Of a DNA stretch of 32,980 nt, positions 29,062-32,046 are shown piece after piece. Position numbers and translations under genes: made by a program. The stretch comes from an uncultured Eubacteriales bacterium (GTDB lineage: Bacteria; Bacillota_I; Bacilli_A; RFN20; CAG-288). Numbering within the stretch: the first letter of the stretch is position 1; every line of letters starts with the position of its first letter. A model generated the notes under the pieces. The model saw only the letters and a list, made by a program, of their open reading frames with translations, did no database searches and was not told where the DNA came from. Location: contig ONBI01000017.1 of assembly GCA_900316035.1 (NCBI GenBank), positions 1 through 32,980 on the forward strand, written 5' to 3'.

Positions 29062-30687
29062 TTATCGGAATCTGTATTTTCCTTTTCCTTTGACGGGAAC
29101 AATGAGATTCAGGATCATAAGATAGCTGATATAGTTGCTAGAGGAAGATTTTGAGACATCAAGCTTTTCCGCGATATCGGATCTGCCGAACGTCTCACTG
29201 AAAAAGGAATCATAGATGCGAAAAAGCATCTTCTTAATCGTGTTGGAATAGTCAGAATGGTTGATGATGCCAATGGTGTCGATTCTGTTTACTTTGATTT
29301 TTTCCTGGTTTTCATCGTCCAAATCATTAAATGAATCGTCCAAATTTTGCCCTTCATAGTCCAAATTTCTGATATTGAGTCCATATTTTTTCGATTCGGA
29401 GGAATATTGAACATATCTGCGGTTGATGGGAATGGTGACGGAGGTAATGTCGATTCTCTCATCGTATTCTTCATAATGGATCATCTCGCTTCCGTTTTCG
29501 GCCATTGCCCTTTTGGCCTTTCCGACACCCGAGCCGAAGGATTCAATCAGATTGAGGGATTTGAACATTTCCCGAATGGATGGATTCTCATACACCCGAT
29601 TAGGAAAAGAATCCTTGGCGTTCAGATCTTCTATGGTTATCGGAGGCGTGGGCTTATTGTAATTGGTGATGACGATTCTATCTTCATAAATATAGATCTG
29701 AACTGTTCTTGGATTTTCATAGTTCTTATGCACGACGGCATTGGTCAGAAGTTCTTCGATTGTCGAATACGGATAGTTATAGATAGTTTCGCTTTTTAAA
29801 TCATCCTTTACTCGTAGAGTCAAAGATCGAAGATAATTATTGTTGATATCATCCATGCAGTTTCTTAGCTGCTTCCAGATAGGTCCTCTATATTCCTTTG
29901 AAGACATGACGGATTCCCCAGAAGAACTTTTATGAATCAATTCGATATAGGCATAAGGGATAAACTTTTCCGGATTATGAGAAAACATAAGTAAGGCATA
30001 ATTTTTGACCATTCCGGTATTCTCATCCAAAAGGCCCATATGCTGACTGATTTCCTTTTTGGATAAGGAAGAAGTGTTGTTTCTTGTTGAGGTAGATCTT
30101 AGAAATTCATGCAGATAATCGACATCCAGATCATCAAGAGTTCCGACATTCGAATACTCTTCCGTGAAATGATAATTCGAGAATTTCTTTAACAGTTCAA
30201 ACTCTTCCCGGATGGTAGCCAATCGGGAATCCCTCTCAATTCGGACATATCGTCCACGCCTGAGATTGACACTTTTATCGTTTTCAGCTTTCTCGAGCAC
30301 CTCAAATGGACCATTATTGTTGTTTAGAAAGGCAAAAATGACAAAAGAACGACCGTCAATCTCGGCATGTGTCAAACTATAGCTGATTTTCGGCTTAATA
30401 AATCCGAGGAGAGACTTCAGGGAATTTTCAATCGTCTCTATTTGGCTTTCATCATAACCGCAAATCGGTCGAACGGGAGTTCCTTTCAAATCCGGTTCTT
30501 TATGTTCTTCTACGCCGATTAAGATCATGCACAAGTCGCGGTTCATCAGATTGTTGGAAAAGGCACACATCGTTTTTAAAATACTATCTCTCTGCAAATG
30601 GGATTTCTTATATTCAAGACAGTCTGATTCGATTTTTCCGCCTTCCAGGTATTGAAGAGCTATCTTTCTGATATCATCAATATTCAT
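29062..30687 (-). CDS. AlbA_2/Schlafen-like putative ATP-binding transcriptional regulator
   Basis: 541-residue protein of the family often annotated as ATP-dependent DNA helicase-related or transcriptional regulator (AlbA_2 plus HATPase_c_4). The N-terminal AlbA_2 region (about residues 15-150) contains ESDCLEYKKS and a late RRGRYVRI. The central ATPase-like part holds STIEELLTNAVVHKNYENPRTVQIYIYEDRIVITN (about 305-345), then IREMFKSLNLIESFGSGVGKAKRAM. The C-terminus is a winged helix (SDIAEKLDVSKSSSSNYISYL). Between them lies a heptad-like repeat NLDYEGQ-NLDDSFN-DLDDENQ (about 441-461) encoded by operator-like DNA repeats. AGGTG lies 6 nt before the ATG. AT-richer codon use than the housekeeping genes and its place in the island suggest transfer. 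Its target is unknown; autoregulation is inferred. Confidence 0.82.
   Translation of the reverse strand: MNIDDIRKIALQYLEGGKIESDCLEYKKSHLQRDSILKTMCAFSNNLMNRDLCMILIGVEEHKEPDLKGTPVRPICGYDESQIETIENSLKSLLGFIKPKISYSLTHAEIDGRSFVIFAFLNNNNGPFEVLEKAENDKSVNLRRGRYVRIERDSRLATIREEFELLKKFSNYHFTEEYSNVGTLDDLDVDYLHEFLRSTSTRNNTSSLSKKEISQHMGLLDENTGMVKNYALLMFSHNPEKFIPYAYIELIHKSSSGESVMSSKEYRGPIWKQLRNCMDDINNNYLRSLTLRVKDDLKSETIYNYPYSTIEELLTNAVVHKNYENPRTVQIYIYEDRIVITNYNKPTPPITIEDLNAKDSFPNRVYENPSIREMFKSLNLIESFGSGVGKAKRAMAENGSEMIHYEEYDERIDITSVTIPINRRYVQYSSESKKYGLNIRNLDYEGQNLDDSFNDLDDENQEKIKVNRIDTIGIINHSDYSNTIKKMLFRIYDSFFSETFGRSDIAEKLDVSKSSSSNYISYLMILNLIVPVKGKGKYRFR
29314..29366 (-). repeat. Three ATC/AGTCCAAAT repeats, 21-bp period, inside coding DNA
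   Basis: On the plus strand ATCGTCCAAAT at 29314 and 29335 and ATAGTCCAAAT at 29356; a weaker GAGTCCATAT follows near 29377. The period is 7 codons, encoding the (N/D)LD(Y/D) repeat of the AlbA_2 protein. The same motif recurs in the gene's promoter. Confidence 0.75.
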
Positions 30688-30732
30688 AGCGTCACCTCAT
30701 TTTTTTGGACTTTGTACTGTAAATAGCAGTGT

Positions 30733-30770
30733 ATCATCCAAATTTTACGATAATCGTCCAATTTTTACAA
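30733..30770 (-). promoter_or_regulatory. Promoter of the AlbA_2 gene with two operator-like repeats
   Basis: Minus strand: -35 TTGTAA (30765-30770), 17-bp spacer, -10 TAAAAT (30742-30747). On the plus strand ATCGTCCAAT (30753-30762) lies between the boxes and ATCATCCAAAT (30733-30743) lies just downstream of and touching the -10. The repeat period is 20 bp. An oppositely oriented TTTGGAC occurs near 30704-30710. Confidence 0.55.
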
Positions 30771-30842: not shown

Positions 30843-31102
30843 ATTTTCTTTCAAGATTGGAAAGCAAGGAGGCCAAAATCGTTTGTCCGGCCTCCCAGAG
30901 ATTCCGGAAGAAAAACGGGTTCCGGGTGATTAGGTTCCGCGACCTACGCCACTCCTGCGCCACGATGCTCCGCCACATAGAAATCCGCATGGAGGACATC
31001 CGGAAGTAACTGAGACACTCTACCATCACGACCACCGAAGGTATCTACGCCCACTTCGGCAATTCGCAGAACAAGGTCTCCATAGACTCCCTAAGCGACT
31101 AA
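30843..31102 (+). pseudogene. Tyrosine recombinase (phage integrase) C-terminal remnant with in-frame stop
   Basis: In one plus-strand frame the sequence reads RFRKKNGFRVIRFRDLRHSCATMLRHIEIRMEDIRK-stop-LRHSTITTTEG and on to IYAHFGNSQNKVSIDSLSD-stop. This is the catalytic end of a tyrosine recombinase: the H-x-L-R box (RDLRHSCA), the second histidine (HST), and the nucleophile tyrosine (GIYAHF). An ochre codon at 31007-31009 falls where family members have the Trp of KWLGHS. No N-terminal or core-binding part precedes it, only about 30 further residues of open frame. It is followed by a strong terminator, so it was once the end of a transcription unit. It probably mobilised the surrounding island. 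Confidence 0.78.
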
Positions 31103-31140
31103 ATCCAAAGCCCCGAGGAAAAGGAAATGAAATGAGCATC

Positions 31141-31252: not shown

Positions 31253-31405
31253 ATGACTTACGATTACAAAGCAATCCAGGAAAAGGACAGAGACGATCTC
31301 CAGTATGAGCTCAGCTCCTACGGCCAGGCCGGATGGAGATAGGTCTCGGTCGTCTACAGCCACGAGGTAGATGCCTGCGTCGCTATCCTCGAAAGAGCCG
31401 ACTGA
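31253..31405 (+). pseudogene. DUF4177-like small protein gene interrupted by an amber codon
   Basis: GGGAGGTG lies 8 nt before an ATG giving MTYDYKAIQEKDRDDLQYEL, then SSYGQAGWR, a TAG at 31340-31342, then VSVVYSHEVDACVAILERAD and TGA. The split halves fit the DUF4177 pattern, in which a conserved GW-x-L-V-S-V segment precedes a final strand; the stop replaces the expected Leu. Total length with the stop read through would be 50 codons. The TGA overlaps the ATG of the AP2 gene (TGATG). Either a recent nonsense mutation or a suppressed stop; the first is more likely because TAG ends several normal genes here. Confidence 0.6.
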
Positions 31406-32046
31406 TGGCGAGGGACGAAATCGGGAAAAGATACGGCCATCTGACTGTCCTGAAGGACACCGGAAAGAGAGTCCATCAGACTAGAATTTTCCTATGCCGA
31501 TGTGATTGCGGTAACCTGAAAGAAGTCGATATCAACAAGCTCCATTCCGGTCATACGACATCCTGCGGATGCCAAAGGCATAAGATCAAAGACCTGACAG
31601 GACAAAGGTTCGGAAGGCTCACCATCCTTTCTTTCAAGGAGAGAAAGAATGGCAAAACCTACTGGAACTGCCATTGTGACTGTGGGAATGATTGCGTGGT
31701 CTCAACCCCGAATCTGACGACGGGGCAGATGGTTTCCTGCGGATGCAAGAACAAAGAGAACCAGAGCAAGGTTTCCAACCTCAAGAACGATTACGTCGAC
31801 GGCACTTCCCTATCCGCCGTGAAGGCATCAAGGAAAAGAAACCGAAACAACACTTCCGGCTATACTGGAGTCCATTGGGACAAGGAACGAGGCAAATGGG
31901 TCGCCCAGATCATGCCGGCAAGGAAAAGTCATCTGATAGGAAGGTTCGACAGAAAGTCCGAAGCCATCCGTGCTAGAAAAGAAGCTGAGAAGGAATACTT
32001 CGGGAAATACCGGAATCAACACAAAAGAGGAAAGTATGAAACTTGA
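31405..32046 (+). CDS. AP2-domain phage-type DNA-binding protein with two Cys-rich repeats
   Basis: 213-residue protein. Residues about 5-58 and 62-115 are two similar units, each with a (G-x-R-x-G-x-L-T) start and a C-x-C-D-C-G-N ... S-C-G-C pattern, which look like zinc-binding modules. Residues about 150-200 form an AP2-like DNA-binding domain (SGYTGVHWDKERGKWVAQI...LIGRFDRKSEAIRARKEAE). Such proteins are common in Bacillota phages and may descend from homing endonucleases, but no HNH nuclease motif is visible. I start at 31405, coupled to the upstream DUF4177 stop by TGATG; a longer frame from 31333 overlaps that gene and has no ribosome binding site. Confidence 0.82.
   Translation: MARDEIGKRYGHLTVLKDTGKRVHQTRIFLCRCDCGNLKEVDINKLHSGHTTSCGCQRHKIKDLTGQRFGRLTILSFKERKNGKTYWNCHCDCGNDCVVSTPNLTTGQMVSCGCKNKENQSKVSNLKNDYVDGTSLSAVKASRKRNRNNTSGYTGVHWDKERGKWVAQIMPARKSHLIGRFDRKSEAIRARKEAEKEYFGKYRNQHKRGKYET

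Follow-up and report, generated by a model that had tools for sequence, protein, structure and literature searches.

The window, the whole 32,980-nucleotide stretch of DNA that was analyzed, contains on its minus strand a gene whose 541-residue product has the architecture of a bacterial Schlafen protein, comprising an SLFN_AlbA_2 domain, an HATPase_c_4 domain, and a C-terminal winged helix. This architecture was not part of the earlier note on the same DNA, which had described a short motif repeated over the promoter of the gene and inside its coding sequence. The features of the locus are as follows.

29062..30687, minus strand: Schlafen/AlbA_2-HATPase-winged-helix gene, 541 residues (domain search and model)
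30223..30630, minus strand: SLFN_AlbA_2 domain, residues 20–155 (Pfam, 48.4 bits, cut-off 25.3)
29446..29706, minus strand: HATPase_c_4 domain, residues 328–414 (Pfam, 48.1 bits, cut-off 26)
29287..29382, minus strand: disordered linker, residues 436–467, the sole stretch with pLDDT below 50
29065..29313, minus strand: C-terminal winged-helix-like domain, residues 459–541 (AlphaFold2 model and weak fold matches)
30742..30770, minus strand: putative promoter, -35 TTGTAA (30770–30765) and -10 TAAAAT (30747–30742), from consensus only
30753..30763, minus strand: promoter repeat 1, AATTGGACGAT, between the -35 and the -10
30733..30743, minus strand: promoter repeat 2, ATTTGGATGAT, overlapping the -10 edge
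29379..29383, minus strand: degenerate fourth core, TGGAC, 20 bp beyond coding repeat 1
29356..29366, minus strand: coding repeat 1, ATTTGGACTAT (motif search)
29335..29345, minus strand: coding repeat 2, ATTTGGACGAT (motif search)
29314..29324, minus strand: coding repeat 3, ATTTGGACGAT (motif search)

The AlphaFold2 model of the protein was built from 30 sequences and has a mean pLDDT of 85.9. Histidine-kinase catalytic domains are among its fold matches, and the winged helix, as modeled, has weak matches in the PDB to proteins such as NolR and HlyU. No Pfam helix-turn-helix profile matches the window protein; sub-threshold matches of this kind occur in two relatives, L004 and L022. The acidic residues E20 and E25, candidates for the active site of the Schlafen RNase, are invariant in 30 sequences; among the PDB matches listed for the model there is no Schlafen RNase. 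In seven relatives (L001, L004, L006, L010, L014, L016, and L022) the AlbA_2-HATPase part matches the PADLOC profiles for prokaryotic Argonaute and SIR2-PNTD, with E values of 1e-6 to 1e-20 and, for Argonaute, at about positions 41–396 of 1121; the C-terminal domain of L001, L004, and L016 matches the PADLOC profile PDC-S72.

Just upstream of the Schlafen gene, on the plus strand, positions 30851–31107 hold a C-terminal remnant resembling a tyrosine recombinase (RFRDLRHSCATMLRHIEI...LRHSTITTTEGIYAHF), recognized by eye and interrupted by an in-frame stop. It is followed by a plus-strand open reading frame (31333–32046) with a sub-threshold match to the AP2 domain (22.4 bits, cut-off 33.3), which is possibly part of the same island.

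Repeated Sites in the Promoter and Coding Sequence

In gene orientation the repeat unit is ATTTGGACGAT, with two copies at the promoter (AAATTGGACGAT and AATTTGGATGAT) and three in the coding DNA (AATTTGGACTAT, AATTTGGACGAT, and GATTTGGACGAT). All five lie where the earlier note had placed them, with distances of 20 bp in the promoter pair and 21 and 21 bp in the coding trio, and one promoter copy falls in the spacer and the other at the -10 edge, as it had claimed. Its description of the copies as the same motif holds for the two that are exact (ATCGTCCAAAT on the plus strand, at 29314 and 29335), but the other three carry one mismatch each (ATAGTCCAAAT at 29356, ATCATCCAAAT at 30733, and ATCGTCCAATT at 30753). 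The coding copies are read on the minus strand as (N/D)LD(Y/D), also as claimed, and encode residues ~441–458, within the disordered stretch of the predicted protein. The window gene has a repeated site over its own promoter, the promoter itself being a weak consensus match; the best sigma-70-like candidate matches the consensus at 9 of 12 positions.

With two mismatches allowed, the motif is not enriched across the whole window (11 matches versus 13.8 expected), and its distinctive feature there is clustering. In a promoter-seeded test (K=10, one mismatch) the five clustered copies were equalled in 2 of 300 synonymous shuffles and in 0 of 300 codon-order shuffles; the test was weaker at two other settings (19 and 78 of 300 synonymous shuffles). 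In a promoter/gene test based on a single HSP, the window gene and the short-motif group were not significant when taken alone. The significance of the promoter/coding match in the window gene by itself is modest and depends on the settings and, because the motif was picked post hoc, the weight of the argument rests on the homologs.

Genome-wide scans were carried out as pattern searches, the genome of the window (G000) being a 1.86-Mb draft that is 75% complete. The pattern TTGGAYNAT-N(9–13)-TTGGAYNAT occurs in it as three pairs, all within this gene, and the reversed control pattern gave no matches in the same draft. Among the relatives, three with TTGGTGC arrays have the paired motif confined to the two ends of the gene, and in genome G239 it is confined to the surroundings of the gene. 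Across six TTKE-type genomes, the pair of AACTACC motifs occurs only one to four times per genome and sits in the linker wherever its coordinates were compared with the locus.

Phased Arrays in Homologous Genes

The comparison covered 15 loci from the order, 5 more from the class, 80 from GTDB species genomes, and a few from plasmid, phage-collection, and viral records; clustering of the 124 proteins at 70% identity gave 43 clusters. A mainly phage-borne family was considered and rejected, relatives in viral contigs numbering one by profile A1 and two by profile A2, with two further unannotated phage-collection records. Arrays were identified with a strict detector that requires direct 9-mers spaced 10–13 or 20–23 bp, and the 3' end was taken as the coding linker or the region immediately past the stop codon. 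Strong phased arrays occur at 31 of the promoters and at 45 of the 3' regions, which amounts to 73 of 102 loci, three of them with both, and in none of 306 mid-gene control windows. The 102 loci cannot be counted as independent observations; cluster by cluster, 29 of 42 representatives have arrays, and none of 126 mid-gene windows does. As arrays that mix direct with inverted copies escape the strict detector, joint occurrence was examined with motif searches as well. Among the loci of the Lachnospiraceae-type set and its neighbors, 30 of 34 have CTTTGGATT-like sites in both promoter and linker, as compared with 0–1 per control window, and the linkers of the Lachnospiraceae-type set include inverted copies.

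The spacing in non-coding arrays is 10–13 and 20–22 bp, or one or two helical turns, in line with the phasing that the earlier note had proposed. Coding arrays are mostly spaced 12 and 21 bp, values that satisfy both helix and codon phase; the 21-bp spacing and the position of the coding copies in the window gene match those of L004 and L037 exactly in kind. In a second subfamily, which the earlier note did not cover, the 3' array lies just past the gene: it starts with the base directly following the stop codon in L006, L009, L010, L012, and L014 and with the fifth base in L015. In L006, L010–L012, and L014 the promoter arrays overlap the -10 or lie upstream of it. The nearest complete homolog, L023 (55% identity), carries the promoter array TTAGTTATT with a spacing of 20–21 bp and no repeat copies in its linker; L032, L058, L005, L007, L008, and L020 likewise have a promoter array to which no second array corresponds. 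In the TTKE-type group the arrays are in the linker, and L022 is the only member with promoter copies.

Similarity of the Promoter and 3' Arrays of One Gene

The repeat sequence varies from lineage to lineage, and the promoter and 3' copies of one gene are alike in about a dozen of the 43 clusters. Strong matches involving lineage-specific motifs (z 14 to 31) were obtained for L004, L006, L009, L010, L011, L014, L015, and L037, and the matched classes (L004; L037; L010–L012; L006; L014; L009/L015) each have a different motif. When nine motif classes were compared, the mean score was 50.6 for matched and 16.6 for mismatched ends, and none of 200,000 random pairings reached the observed sum; the window gene and L016 were only second best in their own rows, and one of the nine, L054, owes its high score to an unrelated flanking repeat and was rejected as an operator match. 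With a general detector, 20 clusters have a promoter array, of which 8 have at least two copies at the 3' end, 2 of those 8 being of low complexity.

The repeat at L054 is a direct repeat of 126 bp (90% identity), located upstream at -199 to -74 and downstream at +10 to +134, and outside it is a second pair, about 344 bp long; these flanking repeats are a possible insertion or duplication scar. At L018, an identical 44-bp repeat with TGGTGTGAT units is found on both sides of the gene (-453 to -409 and +54 to +97), the upstream copy of this two-ended array being displaced to 450 bp before the start. L006 and L012, from different genera, have the gene in or beside a similar tRNA cluster (Ile, Val, and Thr, plus Leu in L012). 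An origin of the L006 array as a target-site duplication was rejected because its motif is absent at related tRNA loci that lack the gene, among which only L160 spans the whole gap between two tRNA genes.

Selection on DNA Rather Than Peptide in Relatives

Synonymous-site conservation, a check suggested in the earlier note, was determined for 27 Lachnospiraceae-type genes. The largest excess is in ten-codon windows starting at codons 434–441, on the linker motif, where the peak of +0.35 (window SD 0.07) is the highest in 524 codons. The unit ACCGACAAGAAA of L062 occurs in steps of 11–12 bp in all three frames, where it is read as TDKK, KPTR, and NRQE, and the coding arrays of L131 and L102 use three and two frames, respectively. 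The heptad peptide of the window protein, whose variability the earlier note had not described, is not conserved among homologs, and unrelated peptides occupy the same place in the linkers of relatives. The earlier note had regarded a peptide kept on unrelated DNA as the mark of coincidence; the opposite was found, in that both peptide and motif change and the match between promoter and 3' end is often kept. The synonymous constraint of the Lachnospiraceae-type cluster and the out-of-frame arrays strongly support DNA-level selection on the repeats in relatives outside the lineage of the window itself; such selection is only a possibility for the in-frame repeats of the TTKE-type group.

Discussion

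The repeats are probably private operators through which the Schlafen-HATPase-winged-helix protein controls its own gene. The gene product is the likeliest binder because the arrays of relatives are constrained as DNA, are helically phased, lie over the promoter, and occur at no other gene; autoregulation by the product is a likely reading of the sequences, and the presence of arrays at one end of the gene or the other in most relatives suggests that these proteins recognize and silence their own genes. The C-terminal winged helix probably recognizes the direct-repeat array of its own gene, and the helical spacing fits binding of molecules side by side on one face of the DNA. From the placement of the copies over the -35 and -10 we infer that the protein would repress its own promoter upon binding. 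The 3' array, which in the window gene is in frame within the disordered linker, would add sites that strengthen or stabilize repression, whether through a DNA loop, through a block to RNA polymerase, or through retention of the protein on its own gene. On this reading the protein would also be an RNase that is kept silent until phage infection. Since the TTKE-type group, L022 apart, lacks promoter copies, repression at the promoter cannot be the whole story.

Autorepression specifically by a DNA loop, in which the promoter and 3' arrays ~1.4 kb apart are bridged and the gene is closed, is possible but doubtful. The earlier note had raised looping, and the clusters with matched arrays at both ends speak for it, as does the helical spacing inside each array; as a general rule it does not stand, because some members of the family are one-ended, either promoter-only (L023 and the six others listed above) or 3'-only (the TTKE-type group), and looping is not a universal need.

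The private-operator reading can be extended to a family of phage-defense Schlafen toxins silenced by operators in their own genes, with the linker peptides (TTKE, NRQE, LGID, and others) as translational shadows of the DNA sites. The winged helix is made last, beside the 3' array, so that new protein may be caught in cis on its own gene; its release from the DNA upon infection would then be the trigger. As a whole, this extended version is unlikely.

It is also quite unlikely that the arrays are the ends of a mobile single-gene cassette, acting as recombination or transposition sites and not as operators. The gene has a patchy distribution, several copies are near tRNA genes, and long near-identical direct repeats flank it in one subfamily (64 bp, 95% identical, in L009; 41 bp, 100% identical, in L010), but the second array of the window gene and its group is intragenic, upstream of the winged helix, related tRNA loci that lack the gene do not carry the L006 motif, and the helically spaced arrays coincide in part with promoter elements. 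A very low probability is assigned to the view that the coding copies are slippage-made peptide repeats of a flexible linker, kept for the sake of the protein, and that their resemblance to the promoter is coincidental. The linker is disordered in the model and in many relatives short peptide repeats are encoded by in-frame units of 12 bp, so that this view keeps some force for the TTKE-type repeats alone; against it are the reading of one DNA unit in two or three frames (L062, L102, and L131), the unrelated peptides at the same place, the synonymous constraint, the matching arrays in untranslated promoter and post-stop DNA, and the divergence of the spacers between the 21-bp copies.

Schlafen proteins act on RNA as a family, the linker and post-stop arrays are transcribed, and one group has transcribed copies only, all of which would suit post-transcriptional control by binding of the protein to repeats in its own mRNA. 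We regard this as very improbable, since promoter copies of the window gene, L006, L010–L012, and L014 are over or upstream of the -10 and hence before the likely transcript start, the spacings of 10–13 and 20–22 bp suit double-stranded DNA, and inverted copies are found in Lachnospiraceae-type linkers. That the resemblance in the window gene itself is due to chance, the family pattern being real elsewhere, is scarcely probable: the single-gene significance is modest and varies with the settings and L023 lacks linker copies, but no other paired copies occur in 1.86 Mb and the 21-bp coding spacing and position recur in L004 and L037.

If private operators are the correct reading, a self-recognizing array would be a testable answer to how potentially toxic defense proteins of the Schlafen type are restrained in healthy cells, and the DNA that each member probably prefers could be read from its own gene. 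The occurrence of unrelated short peptide repeats at one place would be explained as coding sequence shaped by a need for DNA binding, and the many natural pairs of protein and array would form a ready set for learning how winged helices read DNA.

Comparison with Known Systems

Bacterial Schlafen proteins that combine a Schlafen RNase, a minimal histidine-kinase ATPase, and a wHTH have been described from BREX loci in at least 1017 taxa (PMC12839542), and the window protein shares their domain order. An anti-phage role of these proteins is reported in a preprint (Taboada et al. 2025, as cited in PMC12839542). A search of the text of PMC12839542 turned up no reference to operators, promoters, repression, or direct repeats, and a literature search found no paper tying these proteins to repeats in their own genes. 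The TAACTGA repeats of Beggiatoa were considered and looked unrelated.

In fold comparison the model is most similar to DIP2311 of Corynebacterium diphtheriae (PDB 3LMM; E 1.5e-19), which is also the sole PDB match by sequence profile, with 12–13% identity to the window protein and a TM-score of about 0.4; we know of no own-gene operator for DIP2311. The iterons of ori lambda are located within the gene for the initiator, lambda O, and serve as a replication origin, with no copies at a promoter. The window gene resembles this system in having direct repeats, here candidate binding sites, within the coding sequence of the protein proposed to bind them, but it differs in that it has promoter copies and that no replication role is indicated. 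The lac O2 site in lacZ and the internal gal operator are auxiliary operators situated within a gene and bound by repressors. As in lac and gal, sites are found both at the promoter and within coding sequence, an arrangement in which looping is possible; unlike the lac and gal operators, the sites described here are private to one gene, differ between relatives, consist of direct repeats, and are located at the 3' end of the gene for the putative regulator itself.
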